From: Sulfurimonas xiamenensis
GTDB lineage: Bacteria > Campylobacterota > Campylobacteria > Campylobacterales > Sulfurimonadaceae
Direction: 5' to 3'
Length of the DNA: 64,000 bases
NCBI RefSeq assembly: GCF_009258045.1
Contig: NZ_CP041166.1
Span: 1,674,001 to 1,738,000, forward strand
In this document: in pieces, positions 32,305 through 39,136 of the stretch
How the letters are laid out: every line of letters starts with the position of its first letter
How positions within the stretch are numbered: the first letter of the stretch is position 1
The notes under the pieces: model-generated
The model's input: only the letters and a program-made list of their open reading frames with translations
Database searches by the model: none
Told to the model about the DNA's origin: nothing
Translations under genes and position numbers: made by a program

Positions 32305-32475
32305 TTAATTCTCCAATAATTACTACATAAAAATTTTGATATTTTATCTAAAATGATGTTTATGTTGTATTAATAATCAACTATTTAGAAACTTTTAAGT
32401 AAACAAAGTTTTATAAATTTTTATGCAAATAGGATAAAAAATAGTACAAAGTTTTTAAAACTTTGTACTTTAATA

Positions 32476-32483
32476 GGGGGGGG
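32476..32483. repeat. Homopolymer tract of eight G
   Basis: Eight consecutive G bases lie between the porin stop and the ilvE start, about 170 bp before ilvE (they read as eight C on the ilvE strand). Such tracts are prone to slippage in Campylobacterota. It lies outside any gene, so an effect could only be on transcription of ilvE or the porin tail. Confidence 0.6.
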
Positions 32484-32552: not shown

Positions 32553-33734
32553 CTACCAGTGAACCTCAGCAGTTAACATTGCAGAAGTATAATCGCTGCT
32601 GTCACTATTGTCTCTGTTGTATGATTGACCGGAAAGTAACCATTTAAAGTTTTTGTTTTGCTGCCATGCAACACCGTAAATAGCATTTTCTTCAGTATAA
32701 GATACTACTCCTGTTGTTGAGTTTTCATTTTCCCATTCATCATAACGAGCAAATGCAGAGAACTGTTTTTTCTCACCAAAACGGAAAGTTCCGTTTACAG
32801 AGTACCCTTGACCGTTCCAGTCAGTAGTATTAACTTGGTCATTCTCTGATGTAACATATTGAGCAGAAATTAAGAATGAAGGTGTATTATAAACTGTATG
32901 AAAACCATAAAAGTTATAATCTTCTACATTACCTAAAGCATCAGCGTTTGCAGAGTTATCCATATTGTACTGGCCAAAGAAAGATAAATCAAAATAGTCA
33001 TCTTTAAGAGGTTTTCTTTTCTTCTCGCCATTACCAAGAAGTGCAGCAGTTAATCTCCACTCAGCAGAAACACCGTCACCAATCTCTTCATCATCATTAC
33101 CATCGTTTTCACCATGATAACCTTCACCGTTAAAAACACCTAGTTCAGATGTAAAGTATGGAGTTTTTGTTTTAAAGTTAACACCTAAGTCCGCAGAGTT
33201 AGTAAGATGTCCAGCCTCACTTGTCTCTACAAAAACTTTAGAAACAGAGCGCATCCACCATCCTTGGTGCTCTTCATAATCGATCCATGGACGGTGAGCC
33301 ATACCAAACTCCATACCCGTGTATGGTAAAACATTGTTTAAATAAAGATACGCATACTTAACGTAAACATCTGCATGCCCGCCATCGTCAGCAGTTTTGT
33401 TTGAGTACGTAGCATCCAAAGTAACACGAAGATAACTTTTAGGATCATCTAAAACATAAGCTTTTACTTGAACATAATTTCTTCTAACTTCAAAGTTATT
33501 TGTAGAGTCTCCCTCTTTCATATCTTTATTTACAAAACCTAAATAGTGAGTACCGCTAAACTCTAGTTTTGATGTTTTTGAAAACACTGAACTCTCTTTG
33601 TTCTCTAAAGCTTTACGGCCTTCACCTGAAGTTGTAAAAACTTGCCCTTGATCATCTACATAAAACTGTGTAGCGCTTAAGCTTGTCGCACCTACTGCCA
33701 AAGCAGCTATAGCCGATAAAACGATTTTTTTCAT
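32553..33734 (-). CDS. Outer-membrane porin, probable phosphate porin
   Basis: A 393-residue beta-barrel porin with a 21-residue signal peptide (MKKIVLSAIAALAVGATSLSA). The mature protein has alternating amphipathic strands rich in Tyr and Trp and ends in an aromatic residue (AEVHW), as barrels recognised by BAM do. It looks like an OprO/OprP-type phosphate-selective porin, a call supported by its position next to pstS and by a promoter with the same double half-site and spacing as pstS and pstC. It has its own promoter and terminators on both sides. Selectivity is inferred. Confidence 0.85.
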   Translation of the reverse strand: MKKIVLSAIAALAVGATSLSATQFYVDDQGQVFTTSGEGRKALENKESSVFSKTSKLEFSGTHYLGFVNKDMKEGDSTNNFEVRRNYVQVKAYVLDDPKSYLRVTLDATYSNKTADDGGHADVYVKYAYLYLNNVLPYTGMEFGMAHRPWIDYEEHQGWWMRSVSKVFVETSEAGHLTNSADLGVNFKTKTPYFTSELGVFNGEGYHGENDGNDDEEIGDGVSAEWRLTAALLGNGEKKRKPLKDDYFDLSFFGQYNMDNSANADALGNVEDYNFYGFHTVYNTPSFLISAQYVTSENDQVNTTDWNGQGYSVNGTFRFGEKKQFSAFARYDEWENENSTTGVVSYTEENAIYGVAWQQNKNFKWLLSGQSYNRDNSDSSDYTSAMLTAEVHW

Positions 33735-33763: not shown

Positions 33764-33797
33764 ATTATAGAACTATTAGGTTACATATTGATTACAA
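33764..33797 (-). promoter_or_regulatory. Pho-box promoter of the porin
   Basis: On the minus strand, TTGTAAT (33797-33791) and ATGTAAC (33786-33780) repeat at 11-bp period, then exactly 10 bp separate them from TATAAT (33769-33764). Half-sites at 11-bp period that replace the -35 box 10 bp from the -10 is the known layout of PhoB-dependent promoters. The same layout is found before pstS and pstC. Confidence 0.82.
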
Positions 33798-33829
33798 TTA
33801 TTAAGTACGAGTGTAATATTTTAAAATGT

Positions 33830-33867
33830 AAAAAGCCCTTGCATCAATTAAGAAACAAAGGCTTTTT
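33830..33867 (-). terminator. pstS terminator
   Basis: AAAAAGCCCTTG at 33830-33841 and CAAAGGCTTTTT at 33856-33867 form a 12-bp stem with one mismatch around a 14-nt loop. On the minus strand the descending arm ends in a run of five T, typical of an intrinsic terminator, and lies just after pstS. It separates pstS from the porin. Confidence 0.8.
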
Positions 33868-33907
33868 CAGGAGATTTTTTAGAAGAAAGGTAAATGAAAA
33901 CAGATGA

Positions 33908-34912
33908 CTATTTTATATTGGCTGCCCAATACTCTCTAATCATATTTTTAGTCTCTTGTGGAAGAGGAATATAACCTAATCTTTTAGCACTTTCGTCGCC
34001 ATTTTTAAAAGCATAATCATAAAATTCGATTACTTTTTTATTTGTTTGAGGCTTCTCTTTTGGAAGAAGAATAAATGTCGCCGCTACTATAGGATAAGAA
34101 GTATCACCAGGCTGCAGAGCAAGCATTGCATAAAAATTGTCCTCTTTTGTCCAGCTTGCATATTTTGCAGCAGCTTTGAAATTCTCTTCTGTTGCTTTTA
34201 CCCATTTGCCGTTTGCCGTCTTAAGAACCGCTGCGCTTAAGTTGTTCTTCTCTTTATATGCATTTTCAATATAACCTATAGAGTAAGGTGTCTGTTTTAC
34301 TAAACTAGCAACACCCTCGTTCCCTTTTCCGCCGATACCAACAGCCCAGTCAACTGCTTTACCTGTTCCAAAGTTCTCTTTCCAGTTCTTAGAACTTTTT
34401 GTCAGGTAGTATGTAAAGTTATAAGTAGTTCCTGAACCGTCTGAACGGTGAACAACTATGATTTTTTGATTTGGAAGATTAAGACTTTTGTTATCAGCCG
34501 CAATTGCCGCATCATTCCATTTCGTGATCTTTCCTGCAAAAATATCTGCAACTACCTCGTTGCTAAGTCTTAGAGTTGCATCTGCAATTCCCTCTACATT
34601 AAACGCAACTACGATTGAACCGATAACTGCCGGAAACTGTAAAAGCTTATCTTTTGCAAGTTTTTTAGAATCAAGAGGTTTATCAGACGCTCCAAAATCA
34701 ACTACTCTTTTTGAGATCTGCTTGATTCCTCCGCCTGAACCGATAGATTGGTAGTTTACAAGATTTTTTGTATCTTTTTTGTAGTTAAATGCCCAATCAT
34801 AATAGACTGGAGCGGGAAACGACGCGCCGGCACCGTTTATTTTGTCAGCCGCGAACGAAGAACTAATTGACGCTGCAGTTACTAAAGCAGCTAGAGCTAA
34901 TTTCTTTAACAT
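33908..34912 (-). CDS. pstS: Phosphate ABC transporter substrate-binding protein
   Basis: A 334-residue PstS with a 21-residue signal peptide (ending SSSFAA) and the mature N terminus GAGASFPAPVYYDWAF. Phosphate-binding loops show as SIGSGGGIKQI, DFGASDKPLD and RSDGSGTTYNFTYYL. It captures phosphate in the periplasm for PstCAB. It is transcribed away from pstCAB, from its own Pho-box promoter 28-61 bp upstream, and ends at a strong terminator. The separation from pstC by ppk2 and opposite orientation are unusual. Confidence 0.96.
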   Translation of the reverse strand: MLKKLALAALVTAASISSSFAADKINGAGASFPAPVYYDWAFNYKKDTKNLVNYQSIGSGGGIKQISKRVVDFGASDKPLDSKKLAKDKLLQFPAVIGSIVVAFNVEGIADATLRLSNEVVADIFAGKITKWNDAAIAADNKSLNLPNQKIIVVHRSDGSGTTYNFTYYLTKSSKNWKENFGTGKAVDWAVGIGGKGNEGVASLVKQTPYSIGYIENAYKEKNNLSAAVLKTANGKWVKATEENFKAAAKYASWTKEDNFYAMLALQPGDTSYPIVAATFILLPKEKPQTNKKVIEFYDYAFKNGDESAKRLGYIPLPQETKNMIREYWAANIK

Positions 34913-34939
34913 TTGTTTTCCTTTTTGAATGTTTGCGAA

Positions 34940-34973
34940 ATTATAATTGCTCCTTATTACAAGATGATTACAA
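34940..34973 (-). promoter_or_regulatory. Pho-box promoter of pstS
   Basis: On the minus strand, two identical TTGTAAT half-sites (34973-34967 and 34962-34956) are 11 bp apart. After exactly 10 bp comes TATAAT (34945-34940), and the pstS start lies 28 bp beyond. Half-sites resemble the E. coli Pho box (CTGTCAT-type). Control by a PhoB/PhoR pair encoded elsewhere is inferred. Confidence 0.88.
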
Positions 34974-34984
34974 AAAATACAATA

Positions 34985-35857
34985 TTACTCACCCTCAGAT
35001 GCAAATTTAAATTGACTCTCCATAGCAATCGTCTCGTCTCTTCCAAATATCACCACATCTTTATCTACTACAATCTCGCTCTCATCTATTTTATCCGGAT
35101 ACTCTACAAAATTTAAAATATGTTTTATTGTATTGATCCTCGCCTTTTTTTTATTGTCGCTTTTTACTATCGTCCACGGAGCTACATCCGTATGTGTTGC
35201 ACTAAGCATCATATATTTCGCAAGAGCATAAGCATCCCAAAGCTCTTGAGCCTTGGCATCTACTTCAGAAAACTTATACTGCTTTAGAGGATCCTGCTCT
35301 CTTTTGGCAAATCTTTTTGCCTGCTCTTCTTTTGTAACCGAGAAGTAAAATTTAAAAATCTTTATATCCTCATCTGCTATCATTTTCTCAAATTGCGGCG
35401 CATCTTTTAAAAACTTATGATGCTCTCTCTCGCTGCAAAATCCCATAACAGGCTCGACCATCGCTCTGTTATACCAGCTTCTATCAAAAAAGACTATCTC
35501 TCCGGCACTTGGCAAATGAGCCACATACCTTTGAAAGTACCATTGGGTTCTCTCCTGATCACTAGGTTTACCAAGTGCAACAACCCTTGCTCCCCTTGGA
35601 TTAAGATGCTCGATTATTCTTTTTATGGTTCCACCTTTTCCGGCTGCGTCACGCCCCTCAAAAATCATAATGACTTTAAACCCTTTTTCTTTTACATAGT
35701 TTTGAAATTTTAAAAGTTCAACTTGTAATTTTTTCAGCTCCTCTTGATAAATCAAGGTCTCCTCTTTAACCCATATTTTTACTTTTGCGTCTTTATTTCT
35801 TCGTCTGTCTCTATCAGCTTTTCTTCTGTCTATATCTATTTCTCTTCTTTCTTTCAT
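34985..35857 (-). CDS. ppk2: Polyphosphate kinase 2
   Basis: A 290-residue PPK2, a P-loop kinase that transfers phosphate between polyphosphate and nucleotides. Walker A is GRDAAGKGGT at 68-77, Walker B and the catalytic region are FFDRSWYNRAMVEPVMGF, and the lid is KRFAKREQDPLKQYKFSE. The N-terminal 35 residues are highly charged (RRKADRDRRRN). It sits inside the phosphate cluster between pstS and pstC, divergent from pstC. Whether it prefers ADP or GDP cannot be read from the sequence. No full Pho box was found on its side of the gap. Confidence 0.94.
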   Translation of the reverse strand: MKERREIDIDRRKADRDRRRNKDAKVKIWVKEETLIYQEELKKLQVELLKFQNYVKEKGFKVIMIFEGRDAAGKGGTIKRIIEHLNPRGARVVALGKPSDQERTQWYFQRYVAHLPSAGEIVFFDRSWYNRAMVEPVMGFCSEREHHKFLKDAPQFEKMIADEDIKIFKFYFSVTKEEQAKRFAKREQDPLKQYKFSEVDAKAQELWDAYALAKYMMLSATHTDVAPWTIVKSDNKKKARINTIKHILNFVEYPDKIDESEIVVDKDVVIFGRDETIAMESQFKFASEGE

Positions 35858-35896
35858 AAAAATCCTTTACATTATTATATTAAAAACTTACATTTT

Positions 35897-35930
35897 TAGT
35901 AACCTTTTTGTAATCAAAACAACATAAAAT
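35897..35930 (+). promoter_or_regulatory. Pho-box promoter of pstC
   Basis: TAGTAAC (35897-35903) and TTGTAAT (35908-35914) repeat at 11-bp period, and after exactly 10 bp comes the -10 hexamer TAAAAT (35925-35930). The pstC start is 34 bp further on. The geometry equals that at pstS and the porin. Confidence 0.82.
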
Positions 35931-35963: not shown

Positions 35964-36824
35964 TTGAGCAATATAATAGATAAAATTTTTGCTAATGCAA
36001 CAAAATTTATAGCTATTGGCATACTATTGCTTGTTGCTTGGATATTTGCCGTACTTTTTGAAAACTCGCTAGAGTCTATTAAAGCTTTTGGATTTAACTT
36101 TATCAGTGAAGACAAATGGGCACCAAATTTAGAAAAATTTGGAGCACTCCCCGCAATTTACGGTTCTGTTGTTTCAACTTTTTTAGCAATGATCTTAGCA
36201 GTTCCAGTTGCTATCGGTGTCGCAATCTTTTTAAGCGAAATAGCCCATGCAAAAATAAAAACACCGGTAGGTGTCTCGATAGAGCTTCTAGCCGCTATTC
36301 CATCAGTAATATACGGTATGTGGGGGCTTTTTTACTTTGTTCCTATTATCCGTGATATATTTGGCGGTATCGGCATCAGCATGCTAACAGCAGGTATAGT
36401 TCTATCCATAATGATACTTCCATTTATGGCAGCTGTAACACGAGATGCAATGAATACAACTCCAGATATCTTAAAAGAATCAGCTTATGCGCTTGGAGGA
36501 ACAAAGTGGGATGTTGTAAAAGACATCATTATTCCTTATGCAAAAGCTGGAATTATCGGTTCTTTTATCTTAGCACTCGGTCGTGCAATCGGTGAAACCA
36601 TGGCTGTTACTTTTGTTATGGGGAATGTTCATAATATATCAACAGACTTAACACAGCCCGCAACATCAATCCCTGTAACACTTGCAAATGAGTTTGCAGA
36701 AGCAGACAGCGGACTTTACTATTCATCTCTATTTGAACTCTCACTTTTATTGCTTGTTATAAGTTTTACAATTATATCAATTGCTAAATTTTACTTTTTA
36801 CGCAGAAGAAGGATTGGACAATGA
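35964..36824 (+). CDS. pstC: Phosphate ABC transporter permease PstC
   Basis: A 286-residue permease with six predicted transmembrane segments. The EAA loop shows as KESAYALGGTKWDVVKDIIIP. The start is a TTG at 35964, chosen because AAGGAAAG lies seven bases before it and the next in-frame residues fit PstC. It is followed by pstA with a 4-bp overlap. Together PstC and PstA form the inner-membrane phosphate channel. Confidence 0.95.
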   Translation: MSNIIDKIFANATKFIAIGILLLVAWIFAVLFENSLESIKAFGFNFISEDKWAPNLEKFGALPAIYGSVVSTFLAMILAVPVAIGVAIFLSEIAHAKIKTPVGVSIELLAAIPSVIYGMWGLFYFVPIIRDIFGGIGISMLTAGIVLSIMILPFMAAVTRDAMNTTPDILKESAYALGGTKWDVVKDIIIPYAKAGIIGSFILALGRAIGETMAVTFVMGNVHNISTDLTQPATSIPVTLANEFAEADSGLYYSSLFELSLLLLVISFTIISIAKFYFLRRRRIGQ

Positions 36825-37663
36825 CACATACGCAAAAAAGAGTTATAGCAAATAAGATAGTCATGTTTCTATCTACCGTCTCTGCCACTATCGGAATAAG
36901 TTTTTTGTTTTGGATACTTGGTGTTTTAGTTATCAACGGCATAGAAGCACTAAATATGACTATTTTTCTTAACGAAGGAGCTCCTCCAGGAAATGATAGC
37001 GGCGGTCTAAAGCATGCACTTATTGGTCAACTTCTTATTGTATTTTATGCATCAATTTTTGGCGTTCCTCTTGGAATATTAGCCGGAACATATTTAAGCG
37101 AATATGGTCTAAAATCTAAACTGGCAGAAACCATACGCGATATTTCAGACATTATGATGTCGGCTCCAAGTATTGTAATAGGTGCTTTTGTTTACGCAAT
37201 CGTTGTTGCTCCAACAGGACAATTTAGCGGCTGGGCAGGTTCTATTGCACTTATGATTATAATGCTGCCTATAATCTTAAGAACAACTGATGATATGCTG
37301 CATTTAGTTCCATCAACTCTGCGGGAAGCAGCTTTTGCTCTAGGTGCGCCAAAATACAAAGTTATTATTCAAGTTGTTTACCGCGGTGCCAAAGCAGGTG
37401 TTTTAACCGGCGTATTGTTAGGAGTTGCGCGTGTTGCTGGAGAGACTGCACCGCTTCTTTTTACTTCGTTCAACGACAACTTTTTAAACACCGATATGAG
37501 CCAACCAATGGCTTCTCTTACAGTTACAATGTACAACTATGCGACAAGCCCATATGAAGATTGGCAGCGTCTTGGCTGGGCAGCCGCATTTATATTAAGT
37601 ATGTTTATTTTGACGCTTAATATACTTGGACGACTATTTTTATTAAAAAAGAAAGGTAGATAA
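36821..37663 (+). CDS. pstA: Phosphate ABC transporter permease PstA
   Basis: A 280-residue permease with the EAA loop [20 protein letters not shown] and the PstA-typical segment [18 protein letters not shown] after the first helix. It overlaps pstC by 4 bp and pstB by 1 bp, so the three are translated as a coupled block. It pairs with PstC to move phosphate across the inner membrane. Confidence 0.95.
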
Positions 37664-38448
37664 TGGCTACTATTGTTGATATAATAGAAGAAAAAGCTTT
37701 AGAAGTAAATAATTTTGAATTTACATATGCAGGTGCAGATGAGCCAAATATAAAAAAATTGAGTATGCCTATCGCAAAACAGAGCATAACTGCACTTATA
37801 GGACCATCAGGATGCGGCAAAACAACACTGCTTAGAAGTTTTAACCGTATGCATGATCTCTATCCGGGCAATAAATACGACGGGGAAATACTTTTTGAAG
37901 AGAGAAATATTTTAGCTCCAAAAGAGGATCTTATACAACTTAGAAGCCAAATAGGAATGATTTTTCAAAAACCTACGGCATTTCCTATGAGCGTATTTGA
38001 CAATGTTGCTTACGGACTTAAACTTCAAGGCTTAAAAAACAAAATGGAACTTCAAGACAGAGTTGAAAAAGCACTTCAAGATGCTGCAATCTGGCAAGAG
38101 GTAAAAGATAGGTTAAAGCATGATGCAAATGGCCTTTCAGGCGGTCAGCAGCAGAGACTCTGCATCGCAAGAGCAATTGCAGTTGAGCCGGAAGTGCTTC
38201 TTTTTGATGAACCGACTTCCGCACTTGATCCGATTTCTACCGCGGGAATTGAGGAACTAGTTGTTCAGCTTAAAGAAAAAGTTTCCATTATCATAGTTAC
38301 CCACAACATGCAGCAAGCCGCTCGAGTAAGTGACTATACTGGATTTATGTATTTGGGTGAACTTGTAGAGCTCGGTCGCACTGAAGAACTTTTTGTAACA
38401 CCAAAAGAGAGACTAACCGAAGAGTATATAACTGGTAAATTCGGTTGA
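37663..38448 (+). CDS. pstB: Phosphate ABC transporter ATP-binding protein
   Basis: A 261-residue ABC ATPase. Walker A is GPSGCGKTT, the Q-loop is [13 protein letters not shown], the signature is [10 protein letters not shown] and Walker B is [12 protein letters not shown]. The N-terminal region and the C-terminal [18 protein letters not shown] are standard for PstB. It starts at the TAATG overlap with pstA and phoU follows 16 bp later. Confidence 0.96.
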
Positions 38449-38464: not shown

Positions 38465-39136
38465 ATGTTAACAAAGTATGATAAAAAAATAGACAATATA
38501 AGAAAAAAGATATCTCACCTCTTAGAGAATATTGCAATGGCTGATGAACTCTCTTTGGAAGCATTTAAACAATCAGATGCAACTAAATTTAAAGAGGTAG
38601 AAACAAAACTTGAAAAAATTGCTTTACAAGGTGATGCCATTGATAATGAGATTATAAAAACTTTTGCACTTTTTGGTCCGGAAGCAAAAGAGCTTAGATT
38701 TTTAGTGGCATATCTAAAGATGACTAACGAAATAGTCCGTACTGGGGAAGGAGTAAAAAAATATGCTCGCAGAATGAATGAACATACGAGTAATGGATGT
38801 AATATTGAACAATTTAAACCAAGCATCTTGCTTCTTCACAAAAGCAGCGTCAATGCTCTTAAATATATTTTAGAGTGTTTTAATCAGTATGAAAATTGCA
38901 ACTATGAAGACACTTATAGAAAAGTGCTTGTTGAAGAGAGCATGAATGATGATCTTTTTGCAGTTCTGGAAAAAGAGATACTTAATAAAATAATCGATGA
39001 AAAAGAACTCTCCATTGATTATGTTAAAATTCTCGGAAGTCTGAGAAAATTAGAGAGATCTTGTGACAGAAGTGTAAATATTGCAAATCTAATGATGTAT
39101 GCAGAACAAGGTGGAGAGATTAAACTTTTTAACTAA
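38465..39136 (+). CDS. phoU: Phosphate signalling protein PhoU
   Basis: A 223-residue all-helical protein with two PhoU repeats (about 10-95 and 115-205). Metal-binding and dimer-facing acidic and basic residues follow the family, for example ALFGPEAKELRFLVAYLKM. PhoU links transporter state to the PhoR kinase and limits phosphate uptake. It is the last gene of pstCAB-phoU, with AAAAAAGGA upstream. No phoB or phoR lies in the window. Confidence 0.9.
   Translation: MLTKYDKKIDNIRKKISHLLENIAMADELSLEAFKQSDATKFKEVETKLEKIALQGDAIDNEIIKTFALFGPEAKELRFLVAYLKMTNEIVRTGEGVKKYARRMNEHTSNGCNIEQFKPSILLLHKSSVNALKYILECFNQYENCNYEDTYRKVLVEESMNDDLFAVLEKEILNKIIDEKELSIDYVKILGSLRKLERSCDRSVNIANLMMYAEQGGEIKLFN

Follow-up and report, generated by a model that had tools for sequence, protein, structure and literature searches.

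The PhosR box of Campylobacter jejuni, reportedly defined by Wosten et al. in 2006, is said to read GTTTCNAAAANGTTTC, a GTTTC-type sequence with an 11-bp period. Pho boxes have been defined by direct-repeat half-sites with an 11-bp period (PMC4415409), and a strict spacing between the pho box and the core promoter was reported in E. coli (PMC10294691), as far as the available portions of both sources go. When period and spacer were left free at the phoA, phoB, pstS and phoE promoters of E. coli K-12, a period of 11 and a spacing of 10 bp before the -10 element, written (11, 10) below, came out best at all four.

An epsilonproteobacterial population genome holds pstSCAB together with phoU and phoB, both regulators adjoining the pst operon; the available part of this source gives no binding site (PMC4674564). 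Vibrio cholerae deprived of phosphate makes ornithine lipid, for which it requires PhoBR and OlsF, according to the accessible part of PMC12186959. For Sulfurimonas, we found no description of a Pho box, or of Pho control of its olsF, in the titles and abstract openings of the open-licence literature.

Three promoters of one geometry at the pst locus

The window, that is, the whole stretch of 64,000 nucleotides analysed here, corresponds to bases 1,674,001-1,738,000 of the one-contig genome of Sulfurimonas xiamenensis (1,916,242 bases, 1.92 Mb). Its pst locus comprises the following features, in window coordinates.

32553..33734, minus: outer-membrane porin gene, 393 aa; porin fold predicted, with a barrel of 16 strands
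33797-33764, minus: most likely Pho-box promoter of the porin gene; TTGTAAT caat ATGTAAC ctaatagttc TATAAT; 26.9 bits
33908..34912, minus: pstS, phosphate-binding protein, 334 aa; PF12849, 130 bits
34973-34940, minus: most likely Pho-box promoter of pstS; TTGTAAT catc TTGTAAT aaggagcaat TATAAT; 27.3 bits (matrix from other families)
34985..35857, minus: ppk2, for polyphosphate kinase 2, flanked by pstS and pstC; PF03976, 320 bits; TIGR03707, 364 bits, above cut-off
35897-35930, plus: most likely Pho-box promoter of pstCAB-phoU; TAGTAAC cttt TTGTAAT caaaacaaca TAAAAT; 24.3 bits
35964..36824, plus: pstC, permease; PF00528; named by position and gene order
36821..37663, plus: pstA, permease; PF00528; named by position and gene order
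37663..38448, plus: pstB, ATPase; PF00005; named by position and gene order
38465..39136, plus: phoU; PF01895

The first-pass annotation had proposed that the promoters of pstS, the porin gene and pstC share one exact geometry of the PhoB type, and this holds: by direct reading and by pattern search, all three show a period of 11 and a gap of exactly 10 bp to the -10 hexamer, with TWGTAAY-4-WTGTAAY-10-TAWAAT as their common pattern. Each is a direct-repeat pair of half-sites with an 11-bp period, set in the -35 position at a fixed distance of 10 bp from the -10, and each precedes phosphate-acquisition genes (the Pst transporter genes and the porin) in an arrangement conserved in relatives. The start codon follows 27 bp downstream of the pstS site (ATG), 29 bp downstream of the porin site (ATG) and 33 bp downstream of the pstC site (TTG). 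Since (11, 10) is also the best solution at the four E. coli K-12 promoters, the geometry at these sites is that of classical PhoB promoters.

Exact matches to the common pattern in the whole genome number three, namely the pstS, porin and pstC sites themselves, but this count is circular, as the pattern was derived from the same sites. We therefore used an independent matrix trained on 20 pstS promoters, all from genomes outside the family of S. xiamenensis. With this matrix the three sites rank 1, 2 and 3 among 127,934 window positions, at the scores listed above, and the fourth-best position reaches 10.1 bits. The top-scoring positions of 100 Markov-1 windows reached 7.6 bits on average and 22.2 at most, none attaining 24.3. 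At lower stringency the genome contains one further place with one mismatch and three with two; up to three mismatches, 36 matches were found versus 31 for a reversed-pattern control, so that most of the looser matches are due to chance and weight can be given just to the few best ones.

The same fixed-spacing scan, extended to 60 genomes of the genus Sulfurimonas (S. xiamenensis included), found 140 sites with at most one mismatch versus six for the reversed pattern, or 136 versus six when S. xiamenensis was left out, and 54 of the 60 genomes carry such a site. The idea that the pattern might be equally common at unrelated promoters thus runs against both the 14-bit gap in the window and the counts in the genus. 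The spacing is also kept in most relatives. In 81 further genomes of the order we searched upstream of pstS for a pair of GTWWY words with a TANNNT hexamer, a word class picked after the promoters had been seen, with the period (8-15) and the gap (6-14) left unfixed: (11, 10) was obtained in 59 genomes and (11, 12), the next most frequent, in 11, every remaining combination occurring in two genomes at most, and the exact (11, 10) geometry is absent at pstS in 22 of the 81. The sites, their fixed geometry, the genes downstream and the conservation across the order are thereby established by computation.

Among the products of the locus, PstS has up to 85% identity to Sulfurimonas records, its best named relatives, and sequence searches with the porin in Pfam, NCBIfam and PDB gave no match. 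The structural model of the porin, of modest confidence (mean pLDDT 65.4), contains 16 strands, and nearly all of the matches listed by Foldseek and VIA-align 2 are porins or related outer-membrane channels; on this model the product is predicted to adopt a porin fold. OprO (Z 22.6) and OprP (Z 22.3) are among its top VIA-align 2 matches, level with general porins and a chitoporin, at the modest pLDDT of the model. Selectivity for phosphate is plausible from the regulation of the gene only. Just beyond the porin stop, at window positions 32441-32483, an inverted repeat around AGTACAAAGTTTT/AAAACTTTGTACT beside a run of eight G appears, on inspection by eye, terminator-like on the minus strand. 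On the other side of pstS, the pstC box lies within a short region (35858-35930) divergent from ppk2, with 39 bp between the ppk2 start and the box, so that a regulator bound there could influence expression of polyphosphate kinase 2 as well.

Half-site drift and the candidate regulator

The first-pass annotation had also contrasted these sites with the Campylobacter box and suggested that this group may keep an enteric-like site. This was not borne out, as pstS of a related family is preceded by GTTTC boxes placed in register with the sites described here (L344, L368 and L370). In the family f11, which we infer to be Campylobacteraceae, the pstS promoter reads ATGTTTC caaa ATGTTTC caagttgtat TAAAAT in L344 and TTGTTTC cgtt TTGTTTC caagtatagt TAAAAT in L345, and others of f11 have GTAAY-type sites. 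The exact sequence GTTTCNAAAANGTTTC lies upstream of pstSCAB, 10 bp ahead of TAAACT, in two of five Campylobacter-type loci (L368 and L370); no site of this type was found in the other three (L369, L371 and L372). It is also present upstream of pstS in L344, 10 bp before a -10-like hexamer. Mixed half-sites occur, such as ATGTTTT caat TTGTAAT in L341, and the family f16 has GTTAY half-sites. By their sequences, GTTTC and GTAAY boxes are thus one kind of element, in which the letters drift (GTAAY, GTTAY, GTTTC) and the geometry stays constant. Sulfurimonas is therefore not keeping an enteric-like site of its own, as the two are the same box with changed letters.

Which regulator reads this box? 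The genome encodes 12 OmpR-type regulators above the Pfam cut-off, among which the OmpR/PhoB-family regulator at G000:C1:1432486-1433154 (L033) is the best match to E. coli PhoB. It scores 192.5 bits on the NCBIfam PhoB model TIGR02154, which is its top-ranked family though the cut-off of 296.2 is not reached; similarly, the PhoR model ranks first for the sensor kinase encoded beside it, at 154.3 bits, below the cut-off of 334.2. Because of the TIGR02154 score we name the regulator PhoB/PhosR-lineage, an assignment suggested by sequence similarity, rather than PhoB equivalog. Of 120 genomes in the order, 90 yielded an orthologue, and so did 54 of the 57 genomes having a strong pstS hit; of these 54, 42 lie on the same contig as pstS and 32 within 12 kb of it. 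The presence of the regulator and its synteny with pst are thus matters of observation, and in S. xiamenensis itself the regulator gene is unlinked to pst, with a best upstream site of its own that is weak (1.0 bit). Among 57 regulator genes scored, four have an upstream box above 11 bits (L288, 21.4; L315, 16.4; L255, 12.1; L290, 11.9) and 53 have none, with a matrix of the GTAAY type that is blind to GTTTC boxes.

The regulators vary along with the half-sites. Isoleucine occupies PhoB position 197 in all 14 genomes whose first half-site is GTTTY or GTTGY, and glutamate position 221 in 13 of the 14; neither residue is found at these positions in the remaining 40 genomes or in E. coli. All 14 genomes belong to the single family f11 and the count ignores kinship, so that shared descent could explain the link between residues and half-site type.

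The olsF array and other candidate members of the regulon

About 6 kb before the window, olsF is preceded by an array of four half-sites, TTGTAAT-4-CCGTAAC-4-TGGTAAT-4-TTGTAAC, followed after 10 bp by CAAAAT (G000:C1:1667691-1667746, minus strand; L008:1501-1556). The end of the array was among the looser genome matches (place 1667691, minus strand), two mismatches from the three-site pattern, and its last pair scores 7.1 bits. A 59-aa reading frame comes next and is followed by the gene of a 571-aa protein, which scores above the cut-off of the OlsF equivalog model NF052615 (767.1 versus 620 bits, residues 4-569 of 571). Hits to olsF were obtained in 98 of 121 genomes. Among 30 regions upstream of olsF in the family, that of S. 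xiamenensis included, three or more strict GTAAY words follow each other at period 11 in 13 and four in 10, leaving 17 regions short of three strict tandem half-sites; in the same 30 regions, three-word runs are absent at periods 8-10 and 12-15. Shuffled versions of these regions gave three words at period 11 in 0 of 9,000 cases, and the rest of the same loci contains two such runs in 241,578 bases. The array thus predicts, from sequence, a synthesis of phosphorus-free lipid under Pho control; Pho control of olsF is a new prediction.

This prediction bears on published lipid data. In S. gotlandica, ornithine lipids make up 40% of the lipids, and of three Sulfurimonas species it is almost the only one to have them; the available part of the report puts this difference down to species specificity and does not tie the lipids to phosphate (PMC9789136). 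Phosphate control of olsF offers a checkable alternative.

To describe the regulon in the genus, we considered 79 distinct sites with at most one mismatch in 70 loci. Homologues of five genes follow 46 of them: the porin gene (17), pstC (15), pstS (9), olsF (3) and phoB (2). The others precede arsC (one site), a 133-139-aa protein (four) or none of the tested genes (28). As 40 of the 70 loci were chosen mainly for their solitary sites (38 of these hold a single site), the Pho share is understated by these figures. Where a gene could be assigned, the start codon lies 26-35 bp past the site in 44 of 51 cases. With the matrix, boxes were found at pstS, pstC and the porin gene in Sulfurimonas crateris, and at pstS, phoU and olsF in Sulfurospirillum diekertiae, in which the olsF box is an ordinary two-copy one with TATACT (19.0 bits), divergent from the phoU box.

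Of the 36 places with up to three mismatches in the S. xiamenensis genome, 15 were scored. One of them, at G000:C1:88122-88155, equals the pst sites (25.8 bits) and ends 86 bp ahead of an ArsC-like arsenate reductase gene; apart from this and the three sites of the window, the best score is 16.5 bits (1160989). Within the genus, arsC-like hits were obtained in 51 of 60 genomes, and a conserved place for arsC in the regulon is not supported: of 30 loci, only that of S. xiamenensis (25.8) and L411 (15.9) exceed 9 bits.

A few further sites were encountered in this survey. In four relatives (L047, L052, L059 and L259) a box-like site precedes the gene of the 133-139-aa protein, and the S. xiamenensis copy (L006:1561-1977), which has no NCBIfam match, is preceded by a site with two mismatches. 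In three relatives (L071, L269 and L270) a box-like site precedes a gene that, judged by eye, resembles that of glyceraldehyde-3-phosphate dehydrogenase (GAPDH). In L268 (3441-3543), two sites are placed back to back at a distance of 35 bp and separate a divergent pair of transporter genes; one encodes a PotD-like binding protein, the other an ATPase for which the best model is the aminoethylphosphonate transporter PhnT2, below cut-off.

Proposed mechanism and comparison with known systems

In our main reading, to which we attach a probability of about 0.9, a PhoB-family regulator governs a Pho regulon, and the three sites belong to it as sigma-70 promoters that depend on this activator, olsF being probably included. 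They are most likely Pho-box promoters, predicted to be bound by the PhoB/PhosR-lineage regulator. Phosphorylation, binding and induction are transposed here from PhoB biology, as given in the available parts of PMC4415409 and PMC10294691. At low phosphate, the sensor kinase encoded beside the regulator would phosphorylate the OmpR/PhoB-family regulator (1432486-1433154), a dimer of which would bind the two half-sites head-to-tail. The half-sites, one helical turn apart, would take the place of a -35 element, and the bound regulator would bring RNA polymerase to the -10 element at its set distance of 10 bp further downstream, leading to higher levels of porin, PstS, PstCAB and PhoU. The same regulator would probably drive olsF through the four tandem half-sites, with phosphorus-free lipids replacing phospholipids. 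The identity of the binding regulator, the dependence on phosphate and the lipid response are what we infer here.

Are other explanations compatible with these data? The window is 65% A+T, and real and control matches are alike at three mismatches, as expected if the sites were AT-rich promoter background in which -10 elements meet chance GTAA words. Yet a matrix from outside the family singles out exactly these three sites, 14 bits above the next position, the genus total stands at 140 against six, and the same period and spacer recur at pstS in 59 of 81 genomes; the matrix, genus and geometry tests have already refuted this explanation, which keeps a negligible probability. It could also be argued that another OmpR-family regulator binds the sites and places the phosphate genes under a different signal, given the 12 candidates in the genome and a PhoB-like regulator that is both below the NCBIfam cut-off and unlinked to pst. 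We consider this quite improbable, as the regulator at 1432486-1433154 is the top match to E. coli PhoB among the 12, 32 of its 54 orthologues have pstS within 12 kb, a box is found at the orthologue's own gene in a few relatives, and some letters of the DNA-contact region differ between GTTTC genomes and the others.

A more serious objection concerns olsF: the pst and porin boxes would be real Pho boxes, and the olsF array would serve another tandem-binding regulator, ornithine lipids staying outside Pho control. The usual -10 at olsF is CAAAAT rather than TATAAT, the last pair of the array has a low score, and more than half of the upstream regions (17 of 30) do not show three strict tandem half-sites. 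Against this, the half-site and the 11-bp period are shared with the pst sites, the four-copy arrays also lie 10 bp from a -10-like hexamer, the olsF box of Sulfurospirillum diekertiae is of the common two-copy form beside that of phoU, and ornithine lipid in Vibrio cholerae depends on PhoBR and OlsF, as cited above. On balance a separate control of olsF seems unlikely, and we retain its probable inclusion in the Pho regulon.

At the scale of the order, we lean slightly towards a broader view, in which a single regulator lineage and a rigid geometry (11-bp period, 10-bp gap) persist and the half-site letters move from GTAAY through GTTAY to GTTTC, with a few residues of the regulator changing alongside; the regulon of Sulfurimonas and Sulfurospirillum would take in olsF, by a four-copy array in Sulfurimonas, and ornithine lipids in these bacteria would report phosphate limitation. 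The results define a Pho box for Sulfurimonas and a large part of its order, and join it to the Campylobacter box, from which the first-pass annotation had set it apart. The series of half-sites and regulator residues at constant geometry constitutes a natural set for following the evolution of specificity in the PhoB family.

The PhoBR system of Vibrio cholerae shares an OlsF-family enzyme, which is under phosphate control there, whereas the control proposed here is predicted from tandem half-sites in Sulfurimonas relatives. Like the phosphate and pyrophosphate porins OprP and OprO, which are among its top structural matches, the porin has 16 strands in its model; general porins and chitoporin equal them in Z, however, and the porin gave no match by sequence in Pfam or PDB. 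The Campylobacter jejuni PhosR box has the same period and 10-bp gap at pstS in genomes of the related family, where regulators are retrieved by the same query, and differs by its GTTTC half-site (GTAAY here) and by the letters at PhoB positions 197 and 221 of the Campylobacter-type regulators. Finally, the PhoB promoters of E. coli K-12 likewise have two 7-mers with an 11-bp period replacing the -35 and a -10 that begins after a further 10 bp. They differ by CTGTCAY as half-site instead of the TTGTAAY of Sulfurimonas, and the porin without database matches is a further difference. For a known kind of promoter, the confirmation given here is firm and coherent.
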